NCBI RefSeq assembly: GCF_014203225.1
Contig: NZ_JACHIO010000003.1
Span: 248,001-312,000 of the forward strand
Length of the DNA stretch: 64,000 bases
Direction of reading: 5' to 3'
Source: Granulicella mallensis
GTDB lineage: Bacteria; Acidobacteriota; Terriglobia; Terriglobales; Acidobacteriaceae
This document shows positions 47,739-64,000 of the stretch, in pieces (the stretch's first letter is position 1; each line of letters starts with the position of its first letter). The position numbers were made by a program, and so were the translations under genes. Under the pieces are notes generated by a model that did no database searches, was not told where the DNA came from, and saw only the letters and a list, made by a program, of their open reading frames with translations.

Positions 47739-50700
47739 CTATACTTGTCCAGATAGTGTGGGTGGCTTGGAGGAGTTGAACTCCGGAGGATAAGTGGTTG
47801 AACGGACATCCCTCCCTGCGTTAGGTAACGGCAGGCATTTCAGACACGCTTTTATCTGAACGCTTAGTTGGAGCACATGGGGTTCGGCCAGCACGGTGAC
47901 ATGATCACCTGGGGTCGTCCTCTGCTCAAAACCGCGTCGAGAGAGCCTACTCCACCACTCAGCCGCATCCGATGGCGATTCCTCCTCTGCTCGAAAGTAG
48001 GTGACGGTCAGATCTGCGGGTTGTGGCTGGTAGGCCCTGCGTGCAGCCACGTGCGCTCGTCCCGTCTTCAGCGAACGCCGCACCCACTGTTCCAGCCCTT
48101 CACGCGGCAGCATCTTCAGTTCGCTCAGTTCCGCGACGACTCGTCTTACCTGCTCTTCTTCAGGTAAGCCCTCGATCGCAGCGGTCTCAAAGGAGCTGCT
48201 TCGGCGTGTAAAACGTGCGGCGGCCTGCACAATGCCTGCGAGTACCTTTGCCGTATCGATCTTCTCGATTACTCCCTGGTCCGCCACCCCCGCGCGCGGC
48301 GAATCGATCAGCCCGAGAAACGCGACCTCATCGCCTAAAGCACGTAGTTTGGCTGCCATCTCGAAAGCGACCATACCTCCCAGCGAATGCCCACATAGCA
48401 GGTATGGCCCCTCAGGCTGCAGCCGCTTCAGCTCTACCAGATAGCTCGCCGACATCGCCTCCACGCGGTCATGTGGTTCCTCATCGTCCTGGATTCCCCG
48501 CGCCTGGAAGCCATACACCGGAATGTGCAGCCCAAGATGCCTCACCAGAAACATGTAGTTGTAAAGCGCACCACCACCGGAGTGAACGAGGAAGAGCTTG
48601 ACTGCAGACTCACCCGACCACAACTCAACAACCCTGGAGACATTGGAGGACGCCGATTCAAGGATCTCTGCCAACCGCCGGATGGTTGGCTGCTTCAGGA
48701 AGGCGGACAAGACAAGACGCCGGCCAAACTGATGCTCAACCCGCATCAGCATACGCATGGCAAGCAAGGAATGCCCTCCGAGATCAAAGAACTCCTGTGT
48801 CACGCCGAAGTGGCCTGCGGGCAGTATCTCCTGCCAGAGCCTGAGCAATGCCTCCTCCGTCGCATTGCGCGGCGACTCCACCTTTGCATCCGCGGCTTCG
48901 GGGGTCGGCCGAATCTGCTGGAGGCGCTTGCGATCTACCTTGCCGTTCGCCGTCAGCGGCATCGCTTTGACGAAGACAAAACTGGAAGGCACCATCGCAT
49001 CCGGTAGCGTCTTGCGTAAAAATGCCCGGATCACCAGCGCTGTGCAGACCGAGGGATCATGGGGCATCACATACGCGATCAGCCGTGTGTCGAGGACGCC
49101 AGCCCTCTCCTCCAACTCCGCAAGCACCACGACAGCAGCCACCTGAGGATGCTCGCGCAGACGCGCTGCCACCTCCTCCGGCTCCACACGAACACCATGG
49201 ACTTTCACCTGAAAATCCATACGACCCAGGAACTCGAGGTTGCCGTCAACAGTGAATGCCCCTCTATCGCCGGTCAGGTACAGCAGGTCATCGGAATACT
49301 CAGAGAACGGATTTCTGATAAACCGCCGAGCCTGTTCCTCCGGAACGTTCCAGTAGCCCGCGCTACGGAACGGAGTGCGGATTGCGATCTCTCCGGGTTC
49401 GCCTATGGCACAGCATTGCTTCGCGGGCGACAGAATAAGTACCTGCGTCTGAGGCAACGGCTTGCCGAGAGGCTGCACGCCGGCACGCATCTGCCGGGGA
49501 ACCCGGTAGAAACACTTCGCGAGCGTGGTTTCGGTGGGCCCATAAAGATTGATCAACTCGCACTCTGCTGCAATGACCTTGCGAAAGCGCTCGATCAACG
49601 CAGAGGTGAGAGGTTCACCAGCGAAAAATAATCTCTTCAAATGGGACAGTGGCGCAGGCGACGGCTGTGCCAGCCACAGATCCACGACGGAGGGCACTGT
49701 GTGCATACTGGTGATCTGTTGCATCTGTAACCAGTCCAGCACAGCGCCCGGCGAAGCAAGGTTATTCGCAGAGGGCACCACCAGTGTCGCACCCGATGTA
49801 AGCGGCAGGAAGATATCGCGCAGCACAACATCAAAAGAGAGCCCGGTGAGATGGGCACACCGGTCCCCAGGGCCAATACGGAACTCCGCACGTTGCCAGG
49901 CGAGAAAGTGAGCCAGCCCCTCATGTGTTCCCAGCACTCCCTTCGGTCTCCCCGTGCTGCCGGAGGTAAAGAAAAGATACGCGGCACCGGGGCCACTACC
50001 CAGCGTCAAATCGTGCACGACTTCGGCGCCATCCACCGTGAAGCGCAAAGTAACCAGGCCAGGCATCGCGTCCTGCCATGAAGACGGAACCGGGTGACCC
50101 GCAATCTGCCAGAGAAAGCGCGCTTGCGCCTCTTCAAGCATCATCAAACGGCGCTGTTCGGGAAGATCCTCACTCAGCGTAAGAAGGACCGCACCTACCG
50201 CAAGCACCGCGGCCATGGCCACCGCCATCTCCACAGAGCGCGGGCCACTGACGGCAACGACCTCACCCGCCACGACACCATGGCACTGCAGGTGTACTGC
50301 GCTCGCCTGGACCTGTTGCCAAAACTGTATGTAGGTCAACTGCTTTGACTCGCCCCTCACCGCCAGCGCATTCGGCGTCCGGCTCGCCCAGTCGCGAATG
50401 CTCTCCACAACCCGCGGAAGTTGAGGCTTCGGAATAGGCTCTGCAAAAGGCTGTGGTTTGTTTCCATCCAGCATCAGGCTTCCTAAGGTCCTTCGCGGAT
50501 TATCGAGAATCTGTACCAGCAGATGATGAAACTGATCCAGGAACAGCTCTACTCTTTCCCGCGTATAGAGCGCAGGACGGTACAGCAAGCAAAGGCTGTA
50601 AATTCTTCGTTCCTCAGTGATCTGCATTTGCATGGAGAACTCGGAGCCCTGTACCGGAGCCTCCAGGAGGTTGACGCGAATTCCCGGCCACTGCCACGAG

Positions 50701-51914
50701 CGCGCGGGGACAGGGGCAAAGTTGAAGAGCACATCAAACAATGGGGCTGCTCCCCCACGCTTCGTCTGAAGCGCATGTACAACCTGCTCATAGGGAGCCT
50801 CACCATGCGCAATACCCTCAAGCACCCGTTCGCGCACGGTCTGCAACAACTCTTCTACCGTATCCGTCTCCTGTATCGTCACGCGCAGAGCCAGTGTGTT
50901 AACGAAGACCCCAACCAGCCTCTCGCTATCAGCCCTATCCCTCCCGCTCACAGGAGAACCTACGATCAAATCCTCCTGCCCTGTGCACCGTGCAAGCAGA
51001 ATGTAGAAAACCGTCAATAGCAGAGCAAATGGTGTCGTACCGTGCGATGCGCTGAACGACTGCATTTGGGTAGAAAGCTCAACACCAAGCTGCCTGGACA
51101 GACTGGCTCCCGCAGCAGGAGGAACGGCAGGATCCTCTGAAGCATCCGGACGCAGCCGAACCGCAGCCGGAGGCTCGGCAAGGCGGCTCTTCCAGTACTC
51201 CATGATGGGACCGAATCCAGGCGATTCGATCCTCCGGCGCTGCCATGCGGCAAACTCGTGATACTGCATGGGCAGCGGAGCCAGGCTGCACTCGCCTCGT
51301 AGTTGCTGCGCGGTATAAAGTGCGGTCAGTTCTTCCAGAACCAGACCAATCGACCAACCATCTCCCGCGATATGGTGTAGAGCGAGAACAAGATCATGAC
51401 GATGCGGTTCCATGCGGATCAACAGCGCACGGAACGGAGACTCCTCACCGAGCGAAAAGGGCCGGGTTGCCTCCTCGCGAAACGCCACCTCTTTGCGCGA
51501 ATCCCGATCCTGAACCCCGACCGCGCACAGATCAAGGATGCGCAGCAGTCCGTCTCCCGGCGCACCAACAGAGGGCTGCAATTGGCCGTCCTTCACAGGA
51601 AAAGTGGTGCGTAAGACCTCGTGCCGCAAAACGATCTCGCGCAATGCAGCCGCCAAAGCATCCACGGCAAGCTCACCTTCAAGCTCCAACGCACCGCACA
51701 GGATATGAGCTGTATCATCCCCTGCTGTAGCACGGTGAAAGTACATTCGCTCCTGCGCGTAAGAGAGTTGCCGAGGCTCGCAATCCGGTCCGTTGCCTGC
51801 AAAGGTGCGCGGAGTCTCCGGGGCCTTTGGCACGAGGCTCTTCTGTTTCAGGCGCTGCATCAGCAACTCGCGTTCACGCGGCGAAAGCTGCGCGATACGT
51901 TCAGCGGTTGTCAC
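47739..51914 (-). CDS. Single-module NRPS (C-A-PCP-TE)
   Basis: Terminal enzyme of a hybrid assembly line, 1391 residues. Domains: condensation (~45-480, active motif HHIAGDG at 180-186), adenylation (~505-1000, YLFFTSGSTGRPKG near 646, YGPTETT near 791, GRMDFQVKVHGVR, Lys992 in NGKVDRK), peptidyl carrier (LGGHSLL, Ser1049) and type I thioesterase (GHSLGG, Ser1177; late His in TTPGDHVTVL). The A-domain pocket read by eye against GrsA is D-V-R-T-F-A-L-L-A-K. The Asp235 equivalent (Asp695) indicates an alpha-amino acid; I cannot match the rest. The GTG start at 51914 overlaps the PKS stop (GTGA). The last ~35 residues beyond the thioesterase look unrelated and may come from a lost stop codon. 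Confidence 0.93.
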   Translation of the reverse strand: MTTAERIAQLSPRERELLMQRLKQKSLVPKAPETPRTFAGNGPDCEPRQLSYAQERMYFHRATAGDDTAHILCGALELEGELAVDALAAALREIVLRHEVLRTTFPVKDGQLQPSVGAPGDGLLRILDLCAVGVQDRDSRKEVAFREEATRPFSLGEESPFRALLIRMEPHRHDLVLALHHIAGDGWSIGLVLEELTALYTAQQLRGECSLAPLPMQYHEFAAWQRRRIESPGFGPIMEYWKSRLAEPPAAVRLRPDASEDPAVPPAAGASLSRQLGVELSTQMQSFSASHGTTPFALLLTVFYILLARCTGQEDLIVGSPVSGRDRADSERLVGVFVNTLALRVTIQETDTVEELLQTVRERVLEGIAHGEAPYEQVVHALQTKRGGAAPLFDVLFNFAPVPARSWQWPGIRVNLLEAPVQGSEFSMQMQITEERRIYSLCLLYRPALYTRERVELFLDQFHHLLVQILDNPRRTLGSLMLDGNKPQPFAEPIPKPQLPRVVESIRDWASRTPNALAVRGESKQLTYIQFWQQVQASAVHLQCHGVVAGEVVAVSGPRSVEMAVAMAAVLAVGAVLLTLSEDLPEQRRLMMLEEAQARFLWQIAGHPVPSSWQDAMPGLVTLRFTVDGAEVVHDLTLGSGPGAAYLFFTSGSTGRPKGVLGTHEGLAHFLAWQRAEFRIGPGDRCAHLTGLSFDVVLRDIFLPLTSGATLVVPSANNLASPGAVLDWLQMQQITSMHTVPSVVDLWLAQPSPAPLSHLKRLFFAGEPLTSALIERFRKVIAAECELINLYGPTETTLAKCFYRVPRQMRAGVQPLGKPLPQTQVLILSPAKQCCAIGEPGEIAIRTPFRSAGYWNVPEEQARRFIRNPFSEYSDDLLYLTGDRGAFTVDGNLEFLGRMDFQVKVHGVRVEPEEVAARLREHPQVAAVVVLAELEERAGVLDTRLIAYVMPHDPSVCTALVIRAFLRKTLPDAMVPSSFVFVKAMPLTANGKVDRKRLQQIRPTPEAADAKVESPRNATEEALLRLWQEILPAGHFGVTQEFFDLGGHSLLAMRMLMRVEHQFGRRLVLSAFLKQPTIRRLAEILESASSNVSRVVELWSGESAVKLFLVHSGGGALYNYMFLVRHLGLHIPVYGFQARGIQDDEEPHDRVEAMSASYLVELKRLQPEGPYLLCGHSLGGMVAFEMAAKLRALGDEVAFLGLIDSPRAGVADQGVIEKIDTAKVLAGIVQAAARFTRRSSSFETAAIEGLPEEEQVRRVVAELSELKMLPREGLEQWVRRSLKTGRAHVAARRAYQPQPADLTVTYFRAEEESPSDAAEWWSRLSRRGFEQRTTPGDHVTVLAEPHVLQLSVQIKACLKCLPLPNAGRDVRSTTYPPEFNSSKPPTLSGQV

Positions 51915-54900
51915 AGTCCCTCCGCTGACGAGGTACTTTCTGCCGTCTCCGTGAGCACCGCCTCCAGTTCCTCCGCGCTCATCGACTCAATGTCAGCAAG
52001 AAGGTCTTCCAACATACCAGCATCTATGTGCTCCGCCTGGAGAGCGCATATCACGCCTGCCAACTCAGCCACTGTCGGCGCCCGCAACAGGCTGACAAGC
52101 GGTATCTCGACGCGCAGCATGGCATACAGCCGGGCGTTTAGTTGAGTTGCCAGCAATGAGTGTCCCCCAAGGGCAAAGAAGTTGTCATGCACTCCGATGG
52201 GGCTTACGCCAAACAGATTCTGCCAAATAGCGGCCAGTTGCCGCTCCAGTTCGTTCCGTGGAGCCTCATAGTTCGAAGCGAGTGTTGGCCTCTCCTGCAG
52301 GCTGACAACGGATGCCGAGAGGACTTTGCGTTGTCCAACCCATTGTCTGAGCCGTTCGTCCAGGCTGCCCGAAGAGACTGCGACCTGGGTTAGCGCAGGC
52401 TGTGCCAGCACGCGGACAAAGGCCTCCGCGCCCTCGTGGCCATGCACGTAATACGCGCTGACCGTGCCTCCCAGCAGATTGTTCCCAGCGCCGGCATCTT
52501 CCAGTCTCCAGGAGTCCCAGTCGATGCTGAGCCAACGGGGCCCGATACCGTTTCCAGTACGGCGACGATTGGCCCACGCTGCAAAGGAATCCAAATAAAG
52601 ATTGGCTGCGCTGTATGCCGTAAATCCGATGCCTCCCAACAGCGCGGAGAGTGAGGACGTGAGCATGCAAAAGTCAACGGTCCGTGTCTCCAGAATCCGC
52701 TGCAGTGTCATCACACCAAACACCTTTGCGCGGAGCTGTTCCTCACTGTGCTCCGGCCGCATATGAACGATCTCGGAGAACGTGTCGATGCCGACGCTTC
52801 CGGCGGCGTGGATGACACCATGCACGCCGCCAAAGCGGGCCTCTGCCCTGGCGAAGGCCTCCCGCATTGCAGGTTCACTGGAGACATCGGCCTGCACGAT
52901 CAGCACCTCCACGCCCCGCGCCTCCAATGCCTGTAGTTTGCGGATGGTCCTGCTAGTCGGATCTTCTTCAGGGCGAGTCTTCTGCCAGTCCGACCACGCT
53001 GAACGCTCCGGGAACTTCGACCGGCCAAGCAGCACCAGGCGGGCTGCAACCTTCTCCGTCAGATACTCCGCAATCGCCAGGCCTACAGAACCCAACCCTC
53101 CGGTGATGAGATAAATCCCCTGCCTGCGGAGCGGAAGATCATGGTCACCGGGCATCGGAATAGATACCTGCGTCCAACTTTCAACCAGGCGGTCGCCATC
53201 ACGATAGGCCACGGCCGTTGCCTCGTCATCGCAGAGTAGCTCGTTATACAACTGCGCGGCAGCCTCACGCACGTTATCTGCTGAGACGTCGATATCTGTA
53301 ACGCGGCAGAAGAAGTTGGCATGCTCCTGCGGAGCAACCAGCGCGGGACCACGCAGCAGCGCCTTTTCCGGCGACACGTTATCTTTTCGCGTGACCTGAA
53401 AGAGATGATTGCTGACAATATCGAGCCGTTCGGGATGATCGCGTCCCGAGCGCAGCAACGCCTGCAACGTCGCCACGAGCCCGCCATAGCCGCTGGGATA
53501 CAGTCGCCAAAAACACTCAGAGGACGGCGCGCAATCCGGCTCTGCAGGCATAAGCGACCAAAGGTGAACGATCCGCTGTGGAACGAAGTCCTCTGCCTGC
53601 AGACGCGCAAACAATGCCGACAGACTCTCCGGCGAAGAGGGATCCACGGTGTAGTCTTCGTCACGGCCACACCTCTCATTGCCGAGAGCAACCGTCCGGA
53701 CATCAGCTTGGTTGAATCGCAGTCTCTCTGCCAGCCTCGCTCCAACTCCCGTGGCGTCGCTCAGAATCAACCATTTCTTCAATGCCGTGACATCCGGGAC
53801 AAGGGGCGCCAGCGAAGGCTTCCAACCGCGCAGATAAAACCAATCATGCAGAGGCTTGCGCACCTGCTCGGCACGTCCGTCAGATAAGGCAGGATTGGCA
53901 GGAGGCTCTATCCAGAGCCGCTGGTGCTGGAATGGATACGTCGGCAGTGGAACGCGCCGTGCAGGATGAGCAGCCGTCAGTGCGGTCCAGTCCAGCGGCG
54001 CTCCCGCGACCCACAGTCGAGCCAGCCCATTCAGCAAAGCAGCTAACTCGGACTCCGAGCTATAGTGCCAGCGCATCAGCGGAACCACTGCCGGTCGCCC
54101 CTGAGCAAACTGTGCCTGCTCCCGCACGGCCTGCGAGGTAAGGCCCTGGCCCGGCCCGACCTCCACCAGCAGCCGAGAGGACTCTTTCATCAACTCGCGC
54201 AGACCGTCGTAGAAGCGTACGGTGTGGCATAGATGTTGAGACCAATATCGTGGATCTACCGCCTGTTCATCACGAATCCATGTGCCGGTCGTACACGATA
54301 TATACGGAATGCGCCCCCTGGATAACTTGACTCCGGACATCGCCTGCTCCAGCAATTTTGCTACAGGCTGCATCATCATGGAGTGGTAGGCGTAAGCGCT
54401 GCGGAGCCGCTGAAAGCTAACGCCACGCTGCTTGAGACGTGTCTCGGTTTCAGCGATTCCGGCCTCACTTCCCGACAGCACGCTGACGTTGCTGCCGTTG
54501 ACTGCAGCCAGCGACACCTCCTCAGAGACGTACTGCGCAGCCTCCGATTCCTGCAACGGTACAGCGAGCATCAAGCCTGGCAGCGCATGATCTTCAATCA
54601 AGAGGGCGCGTGTTGCTACTGTGCGTAACGCGTCGTCAAGTGAAAAGACGCCGCTGACGTATGCTGCGGCAAACTCTCCGATACTATGGCCGATGCAGGC
54701 CGCAGGTACCAGTCCCCAACTCAGCAGCAGGTCTGCCAGTGCGGCTTCCGTGACGAAGATGCCGGTCTGCAGAAAAGCCGGGCGTTCTCCAGGACTCTCG
54801 GCCGGAGCTGCGCCGCGTCCAAGCATCGCCCGCAGATCGGGTTTTGACGGCTGTTTCGAAGCAGTGGGCTCATAGTGGGGATGGCTGTAATCTTTGCCCG

Positions 54901-56647
54901 GGTACAGTGCGCTCCGAATATCCGCCTTAAGCACAGGCTGCAACAACGACGCACTACGATCGACTGACTCGCGAAATGCCGGCTGTGTGCAGTAAAGCTC
55001 CCACCCCATGCCTGGGTAGTGGTCACCGAGCCCCGGGAACATGAACACCAGCTCCGGCTTTGCAGACACCGTTCCCCTGAACAATCTCTGTGCGTCACCA
55101 TGGGACAGCAGTCTGCCGGCTTCGACGGTATCGTACGCTACCACCGCCGCTCTTTGCTGGAACGGTTTGCGGCCAATCTGCAGCGTATAAGCTACATCCG
55201 CCAGATCCAGCACTGCATGCGACGAAAGGTGATTGCCCAGTTGCGCGAGGGCCACGTTCAGCGCCTCTTCGGACTGCGCAGATACAGGCAACAATTGCGG
55301 CATGCGTCCCCCAGTGTCCCCTTCCCGGAGAAACTGCGGAGCTTCCTCCAGGACGACATGGACATTTGTGCCGCCGATACCGAAGGAGCTCACTCCCCCG
55401 CGCAATGTTCTCTCCTGAGAGAAGTGAATGCTCTCACTGTTTACATAAAACGGTCCGTCCTCCATATGGGTCGCGGGGTTGGGCCGCCGGAAGTTCAGCA
55501 TCGGAGGCATCTCACGGTGATGCAAAGTGAGAACCGCCTTCATCAATCCTGCAACGCCCGCAGCGCTGTCAAGATGACCGACATTGCTTTTGACGGAACC
55601 GAGTGCGCAAAACGCGCGTCTGCCATCACAGTCGCCGAAAGCCTCGCGTAACGCTGCTACCTCGATAGGATCACCCAGCACGGTGCCTGCGCCGTGCGTC
55701 TCGATGAAGGCCATATCCGTGGGCTCCAGACCAGAGACAGCCAGGGCTTCGGCGATGACACGGGCCTGCCCCGTCACACCAGGCGCAGTAAAACCGACCT
55801 TTGCGGCGCCGTCATTATTCGCAGCCGAGCCCCGAATCACGGCATAGATATGATCTCCGTCCTCCAGCGCATCTTCCAGCCGCTTGAGAACGACGACTCC
55901 AGCGCCATCGCCAGACACCGTTCCCTGCGCATCCGCATCGAAAGGGCGGCAATGTCCATCCGGAGAGAGGATGCTGCCGGTCTCGAATAGATACCCATTC
56001 ACCAGGGGCAGGTGAATGGAAACGCCGCCTGCCAACACCATGTCCGTCTCTCGTAACAGCAGGCTTTGGCAGGCCAGATGAACAGCTATCAGCGACGTAG
56101 AACAAGCGGTACCGACGCTGATGCTGACACCGCGCAGTCCCAGGTGGTAGGCAACGCGCGTGGCAAGAAAATTCGAGTCGTTCCCCAGCGCGGCCTGGAA
56201 GGCGCCAGTCCCTTCCACCAGTTCACGGTTCGGCCAGACATGCCGTAGCAGATACATGCTGAGGATGCTGCCTGCAAAGACGCCGATCGCTCCCGGATAG
56301 TTCTGCGCGGTATATCCTGCATCTTCCAGGGCGCTCCATGCGCACTCCAGAAATACACGCTGCTGGGGATCCATGATGGCGCCTTCACGGGCACTCAAGC
56401 CAAAGAAGCCGGCATCGAAACCGTCGGCCTGGTCGATTGCACCCTTCACCGGCACGTAGCCAGGCTGACCCCAGACAGACTCCGGGATCCCGGACTGCGT
56501 CAACTCCTCTTTGGAAAATCTGGTAATCGACTCGGTGCCCGATTGCAGGTTCTTCCAAAATCGTTCAGGGGTATCGGCGCCTGGAAAACGGCAGGACAGG
56601 CCAATAACTGCAATCACTCCGGCAGCAGCGGAAGCCTCTTCGATCAC
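51911..56647 (-). CDS. Single-module type I PKS (KS-AT-KR-ACP)
   Basis: Polyketide synthase of 1578 residues. KS: VGTACSTSL with Cys182, ETHGAGT with His318 and SNVGH with His358. AT: GHSIGEFAAA with Ser655; the specificity box reads YAYH, between malonyl (HAFH) and methylmalonyl (YASH) types, so the extender is uncertain. KR: TGGLGSVGLA near 1192, catalytic Ser near 1332, Tyr1345 and Asn1349. ACP: LGGHSLL with Ser1497. There is no loading domain, DH or ER, so the chain must start from an acyl group delivered in trans and would leave with a beta-hydroxyl. The start at 56647 reads MIEEASAAAGVIAVIGLSCR. Downstream it is coupled to the NRPS; a 266-bp divergent region lies upstream. Confidence 0.94.
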   Translation of the reverse strand: MIEEASAAAGVIAVIGLSCRFPGADTPERFWKNLQSGTESITRFSKEELTQSGIPESVWGQPGYVPVKGAIDQADGFDAGFFGLSAREGAIMDPQQRVFLECAWSALEDAGYTAQNYPGAIGVFAGSILSMYLLRHVWPNRELVEGTGAFQAALGNDSNFLATRVAYHLGLRGVSISVGTACSTSLIAVHLACQSLLLRETDMVLAGGVSIHLPLVNGYLFETGSILSPDGHCRPFDADAQGTVSGDGAGVVVLKRLEDALEDGDHIYAVIRGSAANNDGAAKVGFTAPGVTGQARVIAEALAVSGLEPTDMAFIETHGAGTVLGDPIEVAALREAFGDCDGRRAFCALGSVKSNVGHLDSAAGVAGLMKAVLTLHHREMPPMLNFRRPNPATHMEDGPFYVNSESIHFSQERTLRGGVSSFGIGGTNVHVVLEEAPQFLREGDTGGRMPQLLPVSAQSEEALNVALAQLGNHLSSHAVLDLADVAYTLQIGRKPFQQRAAVVAYDTVEAGRLLSHGDAQRLFRGTVSAKPELVFMFPGLGDHYPGMGWELYCTQPAFRESVDRSASLLQPVLKADIRSALYPGKDYSHPHYEPTASKQPSKPDLRAMLGRGAAPAESPGERPAFLQTGIFVTEAALADLLLSWGLVPAACIGHSIGEFAAAYVSGVFSLDDALRTVATRALLIEDHALPGLMLAVPLQESEAAQYVSEEVSLAAVNGSNVSVLSGSEAGIAETETRLKQRGVSFQRLRSAYAYHSMMMQPVAKLLEQAMSGVKLSRGRIPYISCTTGTWIRDEQAVDPRYWSQHLCHTVRFYDGLRELMKESSRLLVEVGPGQGLTSQAVREQAQFAQGRPAVVPLMRWHYSSESELAALLNGLARLWVAGAPLDWTALTAAHPARRVPLPTYPFQHQRLWIEPPANPALSDGRAEQVRKPLHDWFYLRGWKPSLAPLVPDVTALKKWLILSDATGVGARLAERLRFNQADVRTVALGNERCGRDEDYTVDPSSPESLSALFARLQAEDFVPQRIVHLWSLMPAEPDCAPSSECFWRLYPSGYGGLVATLQALLRSGRDHPERLDIVSNHLFQVTRKDNVSPEKALLRGPALVAPQEHANFFCRVTDIDVSADNVREAAAQLYNELLCDDEATAVAYRDGDRLVESWTQVSIPMPGDHDLPLRRQGIYLITGGLGSVGLAIAEYLTEKVAARLVLLGRSKFPERSAWSDWQKTRPEEDPTSRTIRKLQALEARGVEVLIVQADVSSEPAMREAFARAEARFGGVHGVIHAAGSVGIDTFSEIVHMRPEHSEEQLRAKVFGVMTLQRILETRTVDFCMLTSSLSALLGGIGFTAYSAANLYLDSFAAWANRRRTGNGIGPRWLSIDWDSWRLEDAGAGNNLLGGTVSAYYVHGHEGAEAFVRVLAQPALTQVAVSSGSLDERLRQWVGQRKVLSASVVSLQERPTLASNYEAPRNELERQLAAIWQNLFGVSPIGVHDNFFALGGHSLLATQLNARLYAMLRVEIPLVSLLRAPTVAELAGVICALQAEHIDAGMLEDLLADIESMSAEELEAVLTETAESTSSAEGL

Positions 56648-56913
56648 GCGAAATCCCTCTATGTAACAGCGCTCTGTTTTACTCAGCGGACGGAACAGAA
56701 GACCTCTACACGAGGCACTCTATACAGATAAATGCGATAAATGTACAAGGTCGCCCATAACGCGTCAAGATGACGCTCAGAGGTCTGGCAAGGCCTCCAT
56801 TACAGCCGGCTAAATATATCTACAATTTTTAGAAACAAACCCATTACAGGTCGGTTATACTTGCCGTGCCTTTTACAAGGCGATCAAAAATCTGAGCATT
56901 TCCAGGAGCTACT
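56648..56913. promoter_or_regulatory. Divergent promoter region between PKS and tetrapeptide-repeat gene
   Basis: The 266-bp gap must contain start signals for both strands. For the rightward gene a good -10 TATACT lies at 56856-56861, about 50 bases before the ATG; the matching -35 position (AAACAA) is weak, so an activator may be needed. For the PKS side I find no convincing pair. The region is AT-rich compared with its neighbours. Confidence 0.4.
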
Positions 56914-57159
56914 ATGGCAGAGCAGTTAAACGTATCCGGAGTCTCAAAAGTCCAGGGCAAGACACTGAAGGCCCCCCTCAAGTCAGCCCTAAAGACCAAG
57001 CTGAAAGCTAGCTTCAAGGGCGATATCAAAACCAAACTGAAGACCAAGCTGCAGAACAGCCTCAAGGCTAAGTTGAAGCCTGTCTTCAAAGCGAAGTTCA
57101 AGCCTGAGTTCAAAGAACTCAAGTCGACGCTGCCCCCCGCAGCAGGCGCCAAGGCTTAG
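56914..57159 (+). CDS. 81-aa lysine-rich tetrapeptide-repeat protein
   Basis: Small basic protein with a good ribosome site (CAGGAGCTACT). Residues 18-69 form 13 uninterrupted tetrapeptides with a bulky hydrophobic residue first and Lys second: LKAP, LKSA, LKTK, LKAS, FKGD, IKTK, LKTK, LQNS, LKAK, LKPV, FKAK, FKPE, FKEL. Only one unit has Gln instead of Lys. The leader MAEQLNVSGVSKVQGKT and tail KSTLPPAAGAKA are non-repetitive. There is no signal peptide or Cys. A four-residue period with alternating hydrophobic and basic character suggests an elongated amphipathic, nucleic-acid-, membrane- or carrier-binding structure. I do not recognise a family. It is divergent from the PKS and followed by a strong terminator, so it is its own transcription unit. 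Confidence 0.75.
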   Translation: MAEQLNVSGVSKVQGKTLKAPLKSALKTKLKASFKGDIKTKLKTKLQNSLKAKLKPVFKAKFKPEFKELKSTLPPAAGAKA

Positions 57160-57184
57160 GCCCCATCTCTATACATATCGAGTG

Positions 57185-57221
57185 CAGAAGATGCGCGCCC
57201 CTTCCGGTCGCGCATCTTCTG
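57185..57221 (+). terminator. Terminator hairpin after the tetrapeptide-repeat gene
   Basis: Perfect 13-bp stem CAGAAGATGCGCG (57185-57197) and CGCGCATCTTCTG (57209-57221) around an 11-base loop, 26 bases after the stop codon. The stem's 3' arm is T-rich although no long T-run follows. It should end the short mRNA before the phosphatase gene at 57261. Confidence 0.75.
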
Positions 57222-57260
57222 TCAACAGGTGTCCGCTCAACTGAGAAGGATGGCAACACC

Positions 57261-59084
57261 ATGTTCATTCGCACGCACCAGAGTGCATCGTCGCGTCTTT
57301 ATTCGAATTTCAGCCTGTATTTTCGCAGTGCGGCACGCCTCTCACAAAAGACATACCAGGGCGTAGCCTTCCTGCTCGCCTGCTGGATCTCAACGTGCTC
57401 CGTTTTACCAGCCCAACAGCAGGCCAAACAGGATTCAGCAGAGGATAAGCATCCCCCAAAACTCATCCTGCAGATCGTCGTCGACCAACTTCGCGAGGAC
57501 ATGCTTTCGCGAATGGCTCCCCGCTTTGGAAAGGGTGGCTTCCGCTATTTGATGGATGAAGGCGTCTGGTACGTCTCCGCGACACATCCTCACGCGAATA
57601 CAGAGACCGCCGTGGGCCACACCGTCCTGGCTACCGGAGCCTATCCCTCCCGTAACGGCATCATTGGAAATAAATGGCTCGATCCAAAGACAGGGAAAGT
57701 ACAGGACTGCGTAAATAACCTTGATTACTTTCTGGTTGGAACGCAGAAAACCAGCGCTGCTCCTCTGCAGATTCTGACCACAACCTTCAGCGACCAGATG
57801 GCTCTTGCCACCAACGGCAAGAGCCATATCTTTGCGGTCTCCGAGAAGGACCGGGCGGCGATCCCACTTGCAGGACACAACGGCAAAGCGTTCTGGTTCA
57901 ACACTGATAACGGTCAGTTCAATACCAGCACCTATTACTACTCCGCCTACCCCGCCTGGGTCAGCGACTGGAATAACAAGAAGGATGCAGATGCCTGGCA
58001 AAACAAGGAGTGGGTGCCACTCGACAAACCCACAACCTACCTCTACTACGGAACCGGCCCGTTTGCCAAAAACATGGGGCCCTACGGCGATGCCTTCCCG
58101 CATCACTTTGGAACACTGGGAGGCGACGGCACATTCTATACGAAGCTGACGATCAGCTACGTCGGCAATCGACTGACTGCAGACTTTGCAAAGGCCCTAA
58201 TCGAGAACGAGCAACTTGGCTCTCATGAAGGAACAGACTATCTGGGGATCAGCTTCTCTTCAACCGACATCGTCGACCACAACTTTAGCCCCGACAGCAT
58301 GGAGGGTGAAGATGTTCTGCTGCGTCTGGATCAGACTCTGGCCTGCCTGTTCTCTTACATCGACAAGACCGTGGGCCTGAAAAATACTCTCATCGTACTT
58401 GCCGGCGATCACGGCTCGGCCGACGTTCCCGAGTACCTGGAGACACTGCACATTCCAACGGGAAGGCTCGATACCACTATCGACGACCTCGTTACGGCGG
58501 TGAATCAGGTCCTCCTCGATAAGTATCAAGTTCCAAATCTGCTCTTCCCCTCTCACCAGCCATTGCCTTATCTCTACCTTGACCACGACCTCATTCAGAA
58601 AAATCATCTCGACCTGGTAGAAGTGCAGCGCACGGCGGCAGACGCTGTCATGAGCAAAAAAGGAATCTACCTGGCTCTTCCAGCCACCTCAACACAAACC
58701 AATAACTCCAACGGTGATGCCCAATTGCTGGAGCGCATTCAGCGCATGCACAATCCGGCACGGGCAGGTGATCTCTACGTCGTCCAACTGCCGCAATGGC
58801 AACTAGGAAGACCGCCGGCATCTGGTGAAGGGAACCTCCCCGGGGCTGGCGTTGATCACGGTTCGCCCTGGGAGTACGACACCTCTGTCCCGGTCATCTT
58901 TGCTGGAGCCAGGCTAAAGCATAGTGTCATCTCACGCCCGATCAGCACAGTGGATGTCGCCGTCACCCTCTCTGGAAAGCTGGGCATCGGCTATCCCTCA
59001 GGCAGTGCCGGCACAGTGCTTCCTGAGATTGTGCCCGCCGCTATGGCATGCCAGGATATGGCCGACGAAGAGCACTGCAAGTAG
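57261..59084 (+). CDS. Secreted PafA-type alkaline phosphatase/phosphodiesterase
   Basis: Exported member of the alkaline phosphatase superfamily, 607 residues. A long N-region precedes the hydrophobic signal segment (VAFLLACWISTCSVLPAQQQ). The metal and nucleophile block is LILQIVVDQLREDM (first Asp), then TETAVGHTVLATGAYPSRNG, where a Thr is the expected nucleophile as in PafA, then SSTDIVDHNFSPDS and VLAGDHGSAD for the second metal site, and GVDHGSPWEYDTSVPVIF near the end. PafA enzymes release phosphate from phosphomonoesters. The gene stands between the two halves of the biosynthetic cluster but on the other strand; it could be an unrelated phosphate-scavenging enzyme or act on a phosphorylated product. 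Confidence 0.88.
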   Translation: MFIRTHQSASSRLYSNFSLYFRSAARLSQKTYQGVAFLLACWISTCSVLPAQQQAKQDSAEDKHPPKLILQIVVDQLREDMLSRMAPRFGKGGFRYLMDEGVWYVSATHPHANTETAVGHTVLATGAYPSRNGIIGNKWLDPKTGKVQDCVNNLDYFLVGTQKTSAAPLQILTTTFSDQMALATNGKSHIFAVSEKDRAAIPLAGHNGKAFWFNTDNGQFNTSTYYYSAYPAWVSDWNNKKDADAWQNKEWVPLDKPTTYLYYGTGPFAKNMGPYGDAFPHHFGTLGGDGTFYTKLTISYVGNRLTADFAKALIENEQLGSHEGTDYLGISFSSTDIVDHNFSPDSMEGEDVLLRLDQTLACLFSYIDKTVGLKNTLIVLAGDHGSADVPEYLETLHIPTGRLDTTIDDLVTAVNQVLLDKYQVPNLLFPSHQPLPYLYLDHDLIQKNHLDLVEVQRTAADAVMSKKGIYLALPATSTQTNNSNGDAQLLERIQRMHNPARAGDLYVVQLPQWQLGRPPASGEGNLPGAGVDHGSPWEYDTSVPVIFAGARLKHSVISRPISTVDVAVTLSGKLGIGYPSGSAGTVLPEIVPAAMACQDMADEEHCK

Positions 59085-59386
59085 TGCGAAGCACATTCCC
59101 TGAGGCTTCAGGCTCAGGGAGGCGGCGTCTTTAGAACAGTGTCCCCATAGAGGTAGAGGATTTATTTTCGACTTTCCTGCAAAATTGTCATCTCGACCGG
59201 AGGCGGCGTTTTTTGCCGCCGTAGCGGAGAGACCTGCAGCTTGCCTGCGCAGGCGATACTGCCTCCCCCAGCAAGCCTGCAGGTCTCACGAAGTCGAATG
59301 GACGCATGACATAAGCCGTCATGCGTCGATCGAGGACAAGTCATGGGTAGTTGGGGAAAATCCTCGGCCCCTATGTGGAAACCGCT
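59085..59386. repeat. Two palindromic dispersed-repeat units
   Basis: This 300-bp gap between convergent genes holds (a) GCGAAGCACATTCCCTGAGG with CCCTGAG/CTCAGGG arms at 59098-59119, similar to the palindrome at 6990-7030 in the 326-bp element; (b) a hairpin GGCGGC-N7-GCCGCC at 59202-59220; and (c) inverted arms GAGACCTGCAGCTTGC (59229-59244) and GCAAGCCTGCAGGTCTC (59271-59287). The TCTCGACCGGAGGC...GGAGAGACCTGCAG arrangement looks like an acidobacterial dispersed intergenic repeat. The hairpins may terminate both flanking genes. Confidence 0.7.
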
Positions 59387-60556
59387 TTAACCTAAACAGC
59401 GTCGGACACGCTCCGGCCATTTCTCCGGATGGAACCCCTTCTGGCTAAGAAAGCCATAGGTCCAGCGATCGATTCCGAACCCGATGCAGGAGCTCTCCGC
59501 AAGACTACCGTTCATCAATTGCGTCCCGTAGACAGAGGTATAGAAATCACGGTGCAGATTGAAGGAGGAAGCCGCCAGAGACTCGTCACGGAACGGTAGT
59601 GGGAAGAGAAGTTCGTACTTCACTTCACCCATACGTTGGAAGATGGTCTTGTCACGGTTGGCATCCAAGAAGAACGGGTCGTTCGCGACCTCGACGGTCA
59701 CCGTGAGATCCAGCTCGCGGCATAGCTGCAATGTACGTTCTAGTACCTGTTGGCGCAGACTTTGCATGTCGGCATAGGATCCGAAGAACACGATGTCGCG
59801 AACGGTAAAGTCCCACCCGCGCGCCAGTGGACGAAAGCGGTTGTTCTCGTAGCGGAAGACATGGTTCTGCATCGTCAGCGTGCGCACCTCGCCCTCGGCG
59901 AGCGTGACTCCGCGCATCTGCCGGTAGCACGGCAGGCAGACACCAGGAGTGAGCACATGCTGAGGCGAAGTTGCGTGCTTGCCGGCGTGATAAACAATCT
60001 CCTCCGGCGCTCCCATCGCCTTGGCGACCGAGTCGAGCACAGACAGATCATCCGGTAGATGAGAGCAGAAGGTAACGTGCTGAGGAAAGTGCCCCAGATA
60101 GCCCAGTTCGGCAACGATCGTAGCGGGAAGGAGCGTTGGATACTGTTGCTCTTCAGCATGAAACTCTTTCGCTAACTTCAAGAACTCCTGTTCAAAGAAA
60201 CGGAACAGCTGCAGGATGCTGCCGCGAATTCCTGCCAACCCCGGTCCCAGTGGCAGCAGATCGTTCGTATGCGAGAGCTCTTCGTCGACATCGAACCATG
60301 TGTTTTCTTGGCTCTCCGTCTGGAAGAGCACCTTGGAGGCAATTCGCCGATGCGTCTGGAGTATGCTGGCGACGAAAGATGCTGTTCCATCGGCGGCATC
60401 GTTGTCTCTGCACTGGATCTCGAGGCTGCCGCCGGAAGCATTAAACGTTGAGCTCAGCACATGATCGCCATTGAGTGCCAGGCCGTGAAGCACCGCTTTG
60501 ACCGCGGCTCCGCTTGCCCGTGAAAGATCGAGGGTACGCGTAACGATATCGCTCAT
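59387..60556 (-). CDS. Amino acid:[carrier protein] ligase, class II aaRS-like
   Basis: SerRS-like enzyme without a tRNA-binding arm that activates an amino acid with ATP and transfers it to the phosphopantetheine of a carrier protein (family of Bradyrhizobium Bll0957). Class II motifs are visible: motif 2-like CLPCYRQMRGVTLAEGEVRT and motif 3-like GSLAESSCIGFGIDRWTYGF. Cys residues in HVTFCSHL and SSCIGFG fit the zinc-coordinating active site of the family. The N-terminal ~90 residues form an extra domain, making the protein 389 residues long. Known members prefer small amino acids such as Gly or Ala; the choice here is unknown. It overlaps the acyl-CoA dehydrogenase gene by 4 bp and shares an operon with a free carrier protein, its obvious partner. 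Confidence 0.85.
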   Translation of the reverse strand: MSDIVTRTLDLSRASGAAVKAVLHGLALNGDHVLSSTFNASGGSLEIQCRDNDAADGTASFVASILQTHRRIASKVLFQTESQENTWFDVDEELSHTNDLLPLGPGLAGIRGSILQLFRFFEQEFLKLAKEFHAEEQQYPTLLPATIVAELGYLGHFPQHVTFCSHLPDDLSVLDSVAKAMGAPEEIVYHAGKHATSPQHVLTPGVCLPCYRQMRGVTLAEGEVRTLTMQNHVFRYENNRFRPLARGWDFTVRDIVFFGSYADMQSLRQQVLERTLQLCRELDLTVTVEVANDPFFLDANRDKTIFQRMGEVKYELLFPLPFRDESLAASSFNLHRDFYTSVYGTQLMNGSLAESSCIGFGIDRWTYGFLSQKGFHPEKWPERVRRCLG

Positions 60557-61698
60557 ACGGCGGCCTCATTGTAGGTATAGCGGGCGATCGCTGTTTCCAG
60601 CACCTGCGTACTGCCTTCGATCACCTCCATAATCTTCGCGTCGCGGAGAATGCGCTGCATGGGGGATTGCGCCGAACATCCAACCGCCCCGTGAATCTGC
60701 ACGGCGTCGGCCGCGATGCGGTTGATGGCCTGGGATGCGAAGTACTTTGCAATCGTGCTCGCTTTGACCGCAGCTGGTGAGTTCCTGCCTCGTGTGCTGG
60801 AAGCTCTCCAGCAAAGCAACCGCGCGGCTTCGATGTCCGTAGTCATCCGGCAGATCATCCGCTGCACCAATTGAAACTCTGCCAGCGCCGCATTGAACTG
60901 ATGGCGGGTCTGCGCATAGTGCAGACAGGCCTCCAGGCAGGTGCGCGCCATGCCGACGCAGGCCCAGGCAAGGTTCAGGCGGCCCTGATCGAGCCCCGTC
61001 GCAGCGAAGTGCGTCAGACCGAAGGGAGACCGCCCTACCAGGGCCTCCGCAGGCAGAAAGCAGCGCTCAAAGCGCAGCGTCGCCAGCATGTAGCCGCGAC
61101 AACCGAGCATGCCGTGAATGGGTATCCTGGTTAGCCCTTCTGTATTGGAAGGAACGATGAAGATCGCCGGCCCATTCTCCATTCGAGCGAGCACCAGGAA
61201 TACATCCGCGGACTGGCCGCAGGTGATCCATGTCTTGGTGCCTTCGAGCGTATAGCCACCCTGTACGGCCATCGCCTGCAACTCGACGGCTGCGGCATCG
61301 CTACCCACGTTGGGCTCGGTGATCGCCAGTCCGGCTAGGCATTCGCCGGAGGTCAGTCGCGGCACCCAATAGTCTTTTTGCGCGGCGCTTCCCCAGCGAG
61401 CAATAATAATGCCGCCCATGTGATGCACGTTGACCAGCCCCTGAATCGAGGCACTTCCTGCGCCCAGCGCTTCGTGCATCAACCCATGTCGTATCGCAAG
61501 GTCCTCTGGATCTCCGGCGGGGCCGCCCTTGTCCGCAGGAAAGCCGCTGGCAAACGCTCCTTGCTGGCGGAGCGCCTGGATCACCTCCGCGGGAATGCGC
61601 TCTTCATGATCCACCTGCTGCGCATAAGGAACAATGTGCTTCTCTGTGAAGTCGATCCACTGGCGGTGAAACTCGTTGTAATCTTCAGGCCAGCGCAT
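60553..61698 (-). CDS. Acyl-CoA dehydrogenase family flavoprotein acting on a carrier-bound substrate
   Basis: FAD-dependent dehydrogenase of 381 residues. Family blocks are LAGLAITEPNVGSDAAAVEL, GYTLEGTKTWITCGQSADVF, the middle beta-domain, AWACVGMARTCLEACLHYAQ, then QINRIAADAVQIHGAVGCSA-type helix (INRIAADAVQIHGAVG) and LRDAKIMEVIEGSTQVLETA. The usual catalytic Glu position of short-chain members lies in IMEVIEGS. It sits between the carrier protein (1-bp gap) and the amino acid ligase (4-bp overlap), so its substrate is probably the aminoacyl-carrier protein, oxidised at alpha-beta or alpha-N. The exact reaction is not known. Confidence 0.88.
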   Translation of the reverse strand: MRWPEDYNEFHRQWIDFTEKHIVPYAQQVDHEERIPAEVIQALRQQGAFASGFPADKGGPAGDPEDLAIRHGLMHEALGAGSASIQGLVNVHHMGGIIIARWGSAAQKDYWVPRLTSGECLAGLAITEPNVGSDAAAVELQAMAVQGGYTLEGTKTWITCGQSADVFLVLARMENGPAIFIVPSNTEGLTRIPIHGMLGCRGYMLATLRFERCFLPAEALVGRSPFGLTHFAATGLDQGRLNLAWACVGMARTCLEACLHYAQTRHQFNAALAEFQLVQRMICRMTTDIEAARLLCWRASSTRGRNSPAAVKASTIAKYFASQAINRIAADAVQIHGAVGCSAQSPMQRILRDAKIMEVIEGSTQVLETAIARYTYNEAAV

Positions 61699-61699
61699 C

Positions 61700-61963
61700 T
61701 CAGGCGCCTATCTTTTTCTTCACTAATTGCACCATTGCACGCAGCGTCCTGAAGTTATCCATCTCCAGGTCATCGCTCTCTATCTGGAAGTGAAACTCCT
61801 GCTCCAGGAAGGACACCAGTTGCATTGCGAATAAGGAATTGCCGAACCCCAGAGCAAAGATGTCGTCCTCTTCGCTCAGCGTACGACCTGCAAAGCTCCG
61901 CGCTAAAAAGCCGTGGATGCGTTCAGTAATCTGTTCTTCGGTTTGTACAAGAACTTCGCTCAA
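61700..61963 (-). CDS. Free-standing acyl/aminoacyl carrier protein
   Basis: Carrier protein of 87 residues with the four-helix pattern of ACP/PCP domains. The phosphopantetheine site reads ALGFGNSLFAMQLVSFLE; the Ser of NSL takes the place of the usual D-S-L/G-H-S-L. The acidic helix IESDDLEMDNFRTLRAMVQL follows. No transferase or synthase domain is attached. Its position directly between the kinase and the dehydrogenase, with the amino acid:carrier-protein ligase two genes downstream, makes it the likely acceptor of the activated amino acid. A phosphopantetheinyl transferase is not seen in the window. Confidence 0.88.
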   Translation of the reverse strand: MSEVLVQTEEQITERIHGFLARSFAGRTLSEEDDIFALGFGNSLFAMQLVSFLEQEFHFQIESDDLEMDNFRTLRAMVQLVKKKIGA

Positions 61964-61974
61964 GCTCGTTGCTC

Positions 61975-62631
61975 CTACTTTGAGTGTGTGAAAACAGTTT
62001 CAGAGAAATCCTGTGCTGCAGGGAGAGCCGAATGCCCGCGGCGCTGCAGCTCCAGAGACACCGTCTCAATCCAGCTCTGTGGCGGCAGGGTGCCGTCCAA
62101 AACAATGTCGGAGGTCCTGCGGGCCTCATCTACGGCCACCTGGTAAGCTCGCCGTCCTGCCTGTAAAAACGCTTTCAGATCGGTCACGACATGACGTAAC
62201 TGATCCGTCGCTTCACGAGAGCCGGACTCTAATGTTCGGATCACACGCCGTGCAAGAGCGATGTCCATGGGAGTATCGAGAAACACCACGAGGTCCAGCA
62301 ACCCCTGGAGCTCGCGCCGCGCTCTACCGAAAGGTTCTTCCACCAGCAGGAACGGTGCAGGAGAGATCATCTGTCCCTGCGGCGAATGCACCTTCTTTCC
62401 TGCCCTTAGCGCAGCAAGGTTTGTTGCGAGCTGAGGTGTCTGGAAGGCATTGAGATCAGCGCCCGCATCCAGCCATCCCACGATGTCTGCCGGTACGTTC
62501 GAAACAGAGATGTAGTCATCAAAAGCCAGGCTGACTGTCTCGGGCAAACGCGCGGACAGCTCTCGCAGCAGCGTTGACTTGCCGCTGCCGGAAGTGCCGG
62601 AGATGCCAATGCAGAAGATCTCAGTTGGCAT
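61975..62631 (-). CDS. P-loop kinase, uridine kinase-like, in the diaminopropionate operon
   Basis: Soluble P-loop NTPase of 218 residues related to uridine kinase/phosphoribulokinase. The Walker A is GISGTSGSGKSTLLREL, the Asp-rich motif FDDYISVSN, and VVFLDTPMDIALARRVIRTL contains the lid arginines. PFLLVEEPFGRARRELQG is the region where uridine kinases have FEGI. It overlaps sbnB by 11 bp and precedes the carrier protein by 11 bp, so it is part of the pathway. One option is a free L-serine kinase that supplies O-phosphoserine to SbnA; another is phosphorylation of the product or an intermediate. The substrate cannot be told from sequence. Confidence 0.8.
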   Translation of the reverse strand: MPTEIFCIGISGTSGSGKSTLLRELSARLPETVSLAFDDYISVSNVPADIVGWLDAGADLNAFQTPQLATNLAALRAGKKVHSPQGQMISPAPFLLVEEPFGRARRELQGLLDLVVFLDTPMDIALARRVIRTLESGSREATDQLRHVVTDLKAFLQAGRRAYQVAVDEARRTSDIVLDGTLPPQSWIETVSLELQRRGHSALPAAQDFSETVFTHSK

Positions 62632-63664
62632 GCTTACCTACAGTCCAACTCTCAGGCAGAAAATCATGCACGACAGTTGCATGACCTGTCTTCCTGGCAA
62701 GTTCTACGGCCACGTTGCCCGCCGCCACATCCAGAATGCCCAACCCAAAAGGACTGAAGAGGAGCGGCTTGCCCGGGATGCGGACCGGTGTCTTTCCGGC
62801 CAACACCGCACCCAGAGTCGTGCGGATGAAATCCCGGTTCTGCACCTGCTCGCTGGCCAGGTGGATGGAGGTCTGGTTGCTGCAAACGTGCTCCACGTCG
62901 TCGACAACGTTATCTGCTTGCAAGATTGCCTCCGGCGTGAAGTCGCGCAGAGAGACATGCAAAATCACAGCATCAGACTTCACGCGATCAAGCTGGCCGA
63001 GGTATGGCGTCGTTGCCGTTGTTGCCAGGCTGACAAGATCGCTGGTGCTGAGGAGCGCACCGGAGTCTTCGGAGATGCTGAACCGTCTTCCCTCTGCCAG
63101 ATGCTGACAGCCCTCGACGAACTGAACCGCGCGTGAAGGAAGCAGGTCGAACACTTGGATGTGATCCACCTCCGGATGAACAGTGAGGAGGAATCGTAGC
63201 GTATGAAAGTTGATAAAACCGGCTCCGATCAGCCCAATGGTCCGCACGGATCCCGGGGCCTTAAAGGTCTGCGCAGCCAACGCGGCGCTGGCTGCCGTGC
63301 GATACGCGTTGATAAGCGAGCCCTCCAGAATGGCTGTCGCAAAACCCGTGTTCGGAGAGTTGAGCACCAGAACAGCAGAGGCACGGTCTTGCCCGCGTTG
63401 AAGATTGCCCGGGAACGAGGCCACCCATTTCATTCCGGCTATCGGTTGTTTCCCGCCCAGATAAGCAGGTTTGGCGATGATGCGTGCTGACGGATCGTGC
63501 GGAAAACGCAGGAATGGGCAATTCGGCAGGGACGTATCACCGGCCTCATGGGTCAGATAGGCAGCGCGTACAGCTTCGATCAGGCCCAGTTCCTGGCCTT
63601 CAAACAACACTCCAATCTCCTTTCCACGCAGCAACAAGATGTCGCCGTTGTTCAAACTTCCCAT
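62621..63664 (-). CDS. sbnB: SbnB-like dehydrogenase for L-2,3-diaminopropionate synthesis
   Basis: Ornithine cyclodeaminase/mu-crystallin family enzyme which, in the SbnB subgroup, oxidatively cleaves N-(1-amino-1-carboxyl-2-ethyl)-glutamate to L-2,3-diaminopropionate and 2-oxoglutarate with NAD. The Rossmann motif is IGLIGAGFINFHTLRFLLT; ARIIAKPAYLGG and MKWVASFPGN are the substrate-site blocks, and NTGFATAILEGSLINAYRTA the family signature. The ATG at 63664 gives 347 residues; a longer frame to 63721 would lie inside sbnA. It overlaps sbnA by 13 bp. The specific SbnB call depends on that neighbour and on the close overall match. Confidence 0.87.
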   Translation of the reverse strand: MGSLNNGDILLLRGKEIGVLFEGQELGLIEAVRAAYLTHEAGDTSLPNCPFLRFPHDPSARIIAKPAYLGGKQPIAGMKWVASFPGNLQRGQDRASAVLVLNSPNTGFATAILEGSLINAYRTAASAALAAQTFKAPGSVRTIGLIGAGFINFHTLRFLLTVHPEVDHIQVFDLLPSRAVQFVEGCQHLAEGRRFSISEDSGALLSTSDLVSLATTATTPYLGQLDRVKSDAVILHVSLRDFTPEAILQADNVVDDVEHVCSNQTSIHLASEQVQNRDFIRTTLGAVLAGKTPVRIPGKPLLFSPFGLGILDVAAGNVAVELARKTGHATVVHDFLPESWTVGKHAN

Positions 63665-64000
63665 GCCTGATCCGCCTCCTCCATCGTTAGTGAGGCATCC
63701 CCAAAGTGTTGCCCCGTCCACTCTTTGGAGAAAATGGTGTCCAGATAACGCTCGCCTCGGTCGCAGAGAATCGCGGCGCAGGTCGCGCCGTCAGGAATGC
63801 TGGCCTGATACCTGGCAATGGCAGCTACAACGGCGCCGGCAGAACCACCGGCAAAAATGGCCTCCCGGCGCAGTAGATGGAAGCACCCGCGCACGCATTC
63901 GATGTCGGAGACTTTGACGTGGTCATCTTCGAGGCCGGAGTAATACAGTTCCGGCAACCGCGAAGCTCCGTGGCCCGGGATCAGCCGCTTCTTCGGCTGG
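63652..64000 (-). CDS. sbnA: SbnA-like O-phosphoserine-dependent ACEGA synthase (partial)
   Basis: C-terminal part of a PLP-dependent cysteine-synthase-like enzyme; the gene continues past the right edge. Visible are RLIPGHGASRLPELYYSGLE, VSDIECVRGCFHLLRREAIF, AGGSAGAVVAAIARYQ and ILCDRGERYLDTIFSKEW, all typical of SbnA rather than CysK (DRGERYLDTIFSKEW is the SbnA-type ending). SbnA joins O-phospho-L-serine and L-glutamate to form the substrate of SbnB. The overlap with sbnB and the shared pathway support the assignment. The PLP lysine lies outside the window. Confidence 0.85.
   Translation of the reverse strand, partial: QPKKRLIPGHGASRLPELYYSGLEDDHVKVSDIECVRGCFHLLRREAIFAGGSAGAVVAAIARYQASIPDGATCAAILCDRGERYLDTIFSKEWTGQHFGDASLTMEEADQAWEV

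Follow-up and report, generated by a model that had tools for sequence, protein, structure and literature searches.

A FAAL-NRPS-PKS gene cluster of Granulicella mallensis with a SerRS-like ligase that probably loads serine for an aminomalonyl extender unit

A cluster of 33 kb in the genome of Granulicella mallensis (6.47 Mb) is probably best explained as a FAAL-NRPS-PKS cluster for an acylated peptide, in which a SerRS-like ligase would load serine for the aminomalonyl extender unit of the PKS. What is new is that a SerRS-like ligase probably serves in an extender pathway, a task that another type of enzyme is known to perform in other systems. The left end of the cluster lies in the window (the 64,000 nucleotides analysed, positions 248001-312000 of contig C3), and its right end lies outside, at about 81208. 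We infer every substrate and reaction from gene content, synteny, domain make-up and the kinship of the PKS acyltransferase (AT), which were read directly from the sequence.

Gene layout of the cluster

The genes are listed below. Coordinates beyond 64000 continue the numbering of the window, and HAD stands for 3-hydroxyacyl-CoA dehydrogenase throughout.

47739-51914 (-), NRPS1, C-A-PCP-TE, last module and release (Pfam, motifs, synteny)
51911-56647 (-), PKS module KS-AT-KR-ACP without a loading domain (Pfam)
57261-59084 (+), PafA-like phosphatase with hydrophobic N-terminus (416.4 bits, under the model cut-off of 650)
59387-60556 (-), SerRS-like amino acid:[carrier protein] ligase (NCBIfam, structure matches, synteny)
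60553-61698 (-), acyl-CoA dehydrogenase family protein, ACAD (Pfam, NCBIfam)
61700-61963 (-), free ACP with GNSL motif (Pfam, motif)
61975-62631 (-), P-loop kinase of the uridine kinase/phosphoribulokinase superfamily (Pfam, NCBIfam)
62621-63721 (-), SbnB (NCBIfam TIGR03944, over cut-off)
63652-64686 (-), sbnA (TIGR03945, over cut-off; only the 3' part, to 64000, inside the window)
65112-65837 (+), PPTase (outside the window)
66084-69458 (+), NRPS2, C-A-PCP (outside the window)
69458-73819 (+), NRPS3, C-A-MT-PCP (outside the window)
73981-75234 (-), threonine-synthase-like protein (outside the window)
75252-79127 (-), FAAL-ACAD-ACP loading protein (outside the window)
79214-80284 (-), luciferase-like monooxygenase (outside the window)
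80297-81208 (-), HAD (outside the window)

The genes and domains claimed in the earlier note (C-A-PCP-TE, KS-AT-KR-ACP without a loading domain, sbnA/sbnB, a kinase, an ACP and an ACAD) were all recovered with Pfam and NCBIfam models. SbnB scored 385.9 against TIGR03944 (cut-off 326.9) and SbnA 407.1 against TIGR03945 (cut-off 349.95), and the two genes are adjacent. The true start of sbnB is probably downstream of the GTG used for these coordinates. The operon sbnA-sbnB-kinase-ACP-ACAD-ligase consists of six genes that overlap or are separated by 1-11 bases. The ACP and ACAD genes are adjacent, with 1 base between them, and the ACP gene is one gene away from that of the ligase, while the HAD gene is located 18 kb away from ACP-ACAD-ligase. 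The phosphatase gene, a probable cluster member, sits between the PKS and ligase genes on the opposite (+) strand. The FAAL protein contained AMP-binding and PP-binding domains; fatty-acid--AMP ligase models ranked next after one NRPS/PKS model, all under their cut-offs. The C-domain motifs were HHIAGDL in NRPS2, HHILLDA in NRPS3 and HHIAGDG in NRPS1.

Two overlapping integrase fragments (81657-82651(+)) are located directly past the last cluster gene. The G+C content was 58.8% in the cluster, 56.3% before it and 54.6% after it. Both observations point to a possible past transfer of the cluster. A large peptidase-like protein is encoded at 43919-46399(+), 1.3 kb before the cluster, and weakly matched models for lasso peptide isopeptidase and for Dpp5, under their cut-offs. 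The Rfam search gave no matches at gathering scores.

Conservation of the cluster and of the HAD-ACP-ACAD-ligase block

At E 1e-10 the ligase was matched in 11 of 396 genomes of the source phylum, its own included, and the best other match was 34% identical. The scan of species genomes with the ligase gave six loci with 46-54% identity, from Azospirillum, Methylobacterium, Phaeobacter, Pseudophaeobacter, a Rhodobacteraceae MAG and a Myxococcales MAG. Presence was counted within the contig stretches fetched around these loci. HAD, ACP, ACAD, ligase, SbnA, SbnB, kinase and PKS were present in all six. The same holds for NRPS1, which comes after the PKS in the same orientation and is partial in Methylobacterium, and for the threonine-synthase-like gene, with one weak match (44 bits). 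NRPS2 and NRPS3 were found in five relatives, the PKS contig of Methylobacterium stopping short of them. FAAL-ACAD-ACP was found in five as well (one partial), and the Myxococcales MAG gave only a weak AMP-ligase match. A PafA-like phosphatase was encoded near the cluster in four of the six and a PPTase in three; no luciferase-like monooxygenase was seen in the fetched stretches beyond one 24-bit match.

In four relatives FAAL-ACAD-ACP, NRPS2, NRPS3, PKS and NRPS1-TE are colinear on one strand. The Myxococcales MAG has NRPS2-NRPS3-PKS-NRPS1 in this order, and Methylobacterium has the PKS followed by NRPS1 on a contig of 6.5 kb. Compared with the relatives, the cluster parts of the source genome are rearranged into divergent blocks. 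The earlier note had placed the PKS-NRPS pair in one pathway with the sbn-ligase operon and had asked whether the two occur apart in most relatives. Both sets share a genome in 6/6 relatives and one fetched stretch in 5/6 (in Methylobacterium they are split over two contigs), and the proposal of one pathway is therefore upheld.

An asparagine-synthase-like gene was present within the clusters of Phaeobacter (L028:5009-6919(+); TIGR01536 over cut-off) and Pseudophaeobacter (L029:5126-7051(+), judged by its N-terminus); none was seen in the source cluster. In Pseudophaeobacter leonis (G401:C109, L042) the NRPS2, NRPS3 and PKS genes are each broken into several ORFs, by either decay or sequencing error.

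The HAD-ACP-ACAD-ligase block is contiguous in all six relatives, with the ligase last. It also occurs on two Streptomyces plasmids, as HAD-ACP-ACAD-ligase-discrete AT, with KS and NRPS genes alongside. The two plasmid ligases are 67% identical to one another, and no sbn genes were annotated in the 20.8 kb viewed. Around the serine, the free ACPs from both Streptomyces cassettes and all seven clusters share (N/T)S(L/M)F(A/S)(M/V)Q. Another 28 ligase loci were assessed, 14 from their annotation and 14 through ORF comparison, with flanks of up to 12 kb and some contigs ending sooner; a HAD gene was found only at L064 of Alkalihalophilus. There it sits with an FkbH-type (HAD-IIIC phosphatase) gene, and the ligase and HAD genes lie beside different ACP genes.

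The ligase, the acyltransferase and the extender unit

That the ligase is SerRS-like, as the earlier note had it, was borne out by matches, below the cut-offs, to the amino acid--[ACP] ligase model NF005479 (139.2 bits, cut-off 357) and the archaeal-type SerRS model (116.8 bits, cut-off 611); no Pfam match was obtained at E 0.001. The protein thus appears to be a distant branch relative to the NF005479 family. The solved structures nearest by sequence were the Bradyrhizobium amino acid:carrier protein ligase and archaeal SerRS. Fold comparison with a mediocre AlphaFold model (mean pLDDT 67.3; residues 138-210, 232-249 and 293-310 below 50) placed archaeal SerRS first, and the closest carrier-protein ligase of known structure was the glycine:[carrier protein] ligase. 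The zinc site of the SerRS-like core is presumably Cys/Glu/Cys, and we take the aligned columns to hold the zinc ligands. C207 and C357 of the ligase are conserved. Asp254 replaces Glu in all seven PKS-cluster ligases; Glu occupies this column in archaeal SerRS, in the Gly ligase and in the Streptomyces ligases.

In a tree of 37 ligase sequences the seven PKS-cluster ligases formed a separate clade (100/100). Those of the two Streptomyces cassettes grouped elsewhere with L044 (91/89), and the block label changes twice on the tree. A third clade (100/100) comprised 16 others and holds the DUF1839-type loci, with the order ACP-ACAD-ligase-DUF1839 in six of eight annotated loci; no HAD gene was present in the stretches of DUF1839-type loci that were read. 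Directly ahead of the SFN motif, each of the seven PKS-cluster ligases has Ser, the two from the Streptomyces cassettes have Ala and Gly, and 11 of the 16 third-clade rows have Leu, Met or Ile. This position was not taken as proof of specificity, since small residues occur there in other contexts too. The ligase is proposed to be a seryl-ACP ligase, which would put L-serine on the free ACP without tRNA.

A 3-hydroxyacyl-CoA dehydrogenase requires a beta-hydroxy acyl group, which serine can provide and Gly, Ala and Dap cannot. HAD and ACAD would oxidise the seryl CH2OH to COOH, the ACAD carrying out the second oxidation. The free ACP would then carry the resulting aminomalonyl extender unit, from which the AT and the PKS module would make an alpha-amino-beta-hydroxy unit.

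The evidence from the AT is independent of the ligase. ZmaA of zwittermicin was the best of 108 solved sequences matched by the source AT. In the AT tree six cluster ATs were sister to the two discrete Streptomyces ATs with 93/93 support, which is below the 95/80 mark of the tool; the Myxococcales AT was too gappy and was excluded. The signature GYSxG, which marks ATs for ACP-bound extender units, was present in five of the seven orthologous cluster ATs, which read GYSIG. Of 32 ATs compared, eight carried it (the five cluster ATs, both from Streptomyces, and ZmaA); it was absent from 20 other PKS ATs, of which 16 come from one genome. The source AT and the Myxococcales AT have GHSIG. At the first RXR position the six cluster and two Streptomyces ATs have Ser or Ala, and the five HAFH-type ATs compared whose motif is ungapped have Lys or Arg. 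Excerpts of one source assign GYSFG and GYSLG in zwittermicin ATs to hydroxymalonyl-ACP and aminomalonyl-ACP, respectively, and GHSIG to the malonyl-CoA AT of ZmaK; they tie a change in RXR to ACP-bound substrates, with hydrophobic residues expected there (PMC4207774). It is proposed that the PKS AT takes aminomalonyl-ACP. A hydroxymalonyl extender was rejected, as no FkbH-like family was among the matches of the cluster proteins scanned.

According to excerpts of another source, the zwittermicin pathway converts serine into aminomalonyl-ACP with a seryl-AMP synthetase, an ACP, a HAD and an ACAD (PMC6395733). As far as these excerpts go, the cluster resembles the zwittermicin A subcluster (ZmaG, ZmaH, ZmaI and ZmaJ, with the acyltransferase ZmaF) in having an ACP, an ACAD, a HAD and a dedicated amino acid loader, and most relatives likewise have a GYSxG acyltransferase. 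The loader here is a SerRS-like class II protein, whereas ZmaJ is a seryl-AMP synthetase of the adenylation-domain type, and no stand-alone amino acid A domain of this type was present among the cluster proteins scanned. The AT is a domain of the PKS and not discrete as in zwittermicin, and the assembly line and product differ. With a SerRS-like ligase in the place of ZmaJ, the system would work like the aminomalonyl-ACP pathway without being a strict member of it. The earlier statement that no characterised pathway has exactly this gene set was not contradicted by the literature searched, but the sub-pathway would be the zwittermicin A one with a single enzyme replaced. No report of an extender pathway that uses a SerRS-like ligase was found in the open-access literature searched, and excerpts of the solanimycin, foxicin and Entotheonella papers do not describe the gene set.

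The contiguous block in all six relatives, and its occurrence with a discrete AT on two Streptomyces plasmids, count for an aminomalonyl extender. The separate position of the Streptomyces-cassette ligases in the tree, the exchange of Glu for Asp, and the GHSIG motif and distant HAD gene of the source genome count against it. In these last two features the source copy is atypical.

Predicted product, alternative readings and related ligases

The A-domain codes, read by eye with GrsA numbering, were D(I/V)WQVTTDD for NRPS2, DAST(V/I)AAVC for NRPS3 and DVRHFALLA for NRPS1. They hold in the aligned rows of six NRPS1, six NRPS3 and five NRPS2; the Rhodobacteraceae NRPS2 row is a neighbouring protein and was left out. 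The pocket region of NRPS2 is acidic, ends in two aspartates and was closest to a PvdL module. As the PvdL code is, we assume, that of diaminobutyrate, NRPS2 probably takes a diamino acid, likely Dap from SbnA/SbnB. The code of NRPS3, which we take to be a tyrosine code, suggests that this module probably takes tyrosine, with a built-in methyltransferase. These assignments were deduced from the codes as read and from the PvdL match; no paper on the codes was found in the literature searched. Dap is best read as a peptide residue and not as the ligase substrate.

The FAAL domain would activate a fatty acid, the fused dehydrogenase would probably desaturate it, and the fused ACP would hand the acyl chain to NRPS2. 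The chain would then pass from NRPS2 (Dap) to NRPS3 (Tyr), to the single PKS module and to NRPS1 with its thioesterase, giving acyl-Dap-(methyl)Tyr-[alpha-amino-beta-hydroxy C2 unit]-X. No known product of the cluster was found in the literature searched. The kinase (in 6/6 relatives' clusters) and the phosphatase with its hydrophobic N-terminus (in 4/6) weakly suggest a phosphorylated intracellular form, and the two are possibly a pair for self-protection and release. Alternatively, the kinase might supply SbnA with phosphoserine.

The earlier note had the operon supply the starter of a PKS that lacked one, so that the ligase-bound amino acid would end up in a small aminoacyl-beta-hydroxyacyl-amino acid. 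Inside the window the PKS indeed has no loading partner, and the operon lies beside it. The cluster continues past 64000, however, and the PKS thus has upstream partners that are hidden from a reading of the window alone: NRPS2, NRPS3 and FAAL-ACAD-ACP precede it colinearly in four of six relatives, and NRPS2-NRPS3 do so in a fifth. A starter role is very improbable, and the small product gives way to an acylated peptide with three amino acids and one C2 unit. It is also improbable, to a lesser degree, that the ligase charges the ACP with Dap, which the ACAD would turn into dehydro-Dap to be used in trans. The ligase shares its operon with sbnA/sbnB, and in viomycin-type pathways an ACAD-like enzyme acts on a Dap-derived residue. 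Such loading would leave unexplained the HAD gene linked in 6/6 relatives, the Streptomyces block has no annotated sbn genes nearby, and NRPS2 has an A domain of its own with the acidic, PvdL-like pocket.

A glycyl or alanyl carrier as in the ACP-ACAD-ligase loci of the Bradyrhizobium type, with a PKS using malonyl-CoA, would agree with the closest solved carrier-protein ligase and with GHSIG in the source AT. The PKS-cluster ligases form a clade apart from the one with the DUF1839-type loci, however, no HAD gene was seen in the stretches of these loci that were read, and five of seven orthologous ATs have GYSxG, so that we give this explanation little credence. Drift of the source copy alone, its AT having switched to malonyl-CoA and its extender genes being lost while the pathway persists in the relatives, is unlikely but would account for GHSIG, the longer AT branch (0.81), the rearranged cluster, the separated HAD gene and the integrase fragments at the edge. 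Against it, all cluster genes are open, and the KS, KR, carrier and TE motifs are intact.

Further known systems resemble parts of the cluster. The Bradyrhizobium Bll0957 glycine:[carrier protein] ligase (PDB 3mey/4h2s) has the same SerRS-like core, and its gene is next to ACP and ACAD genes as here. The ligase studied belongs to a separate clade, has about 100 extra N-terminal residues outside the Gly ligase match, and occurs with a linked HAD gene in a PKS-NRPS context. SbnA and SbnB correspond to the Dap pathway of staphyloferrin B, but Dap is here proposed to feed an NRPS lipopeptide line, and no other sbn genes were among the families matched by the cluster proteins. Zwittermicin also contains Dap-derived residues. 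As in FAAL-started lipopeptide lines, a FAAL-type AMP ligase fused to an ACP heads the NRPS line; here an ACAD domain lies between them, and no characterised line with the order FAAL-ACAD-ACP was found in the literature searched.

We lean towards the view that a tRNA-free ligase descended from SerRS displaced an adenylation-domain enzyme in making an extender unit, which would give the family a biological role, and that related ligases hint at a general route for feeding aminoacyl-ACPs. The table of one published source names Ser, Gly and Ala as the amino acids attached. The ligase is kept in the aminomalonyl-type block in Pseudomonadota and a Myxococcales genome, with a second form in Streptomyces. 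If the proposal is true, it would be a compact loader for setting amino groups on polyketide backbones. The cluster also flags a scattered lipopeptide family with no product found in the literature searched.

The idea of a general route draws on other contexts, with diiron oxygenase, amidinotransferase, BtrH and polysaccharide genes. L062, L063 and L065 (Streptomyces NBC_01431, NBC_00335 and Tistrella pTM2) have a diiron oxygenase, a carrier protein and a SerRS-like ligase in a row, and two of them have a nitronate monooxygenase gene; this set looks like one for N-oxidation of a carrier-bound amino acid. On a Streptomyces decoyicus plasmid (L061) the ligase and ACP genes lie by those for a glycine amidinotransferase, dpgABC, a P450 and a PGM1-related peptide ligase. 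On plasmids of Alkalihalophilus and Priestia koreensis (L064 and L073) they adjoin a BtrH-like gene, as if the aminoacyl group were handed on by a BtrH-type transferase. On a Tsukamurella plasmid (L072) the ligase, an ACP and a PPTase are encoded within a polysaccharide gene cluster.
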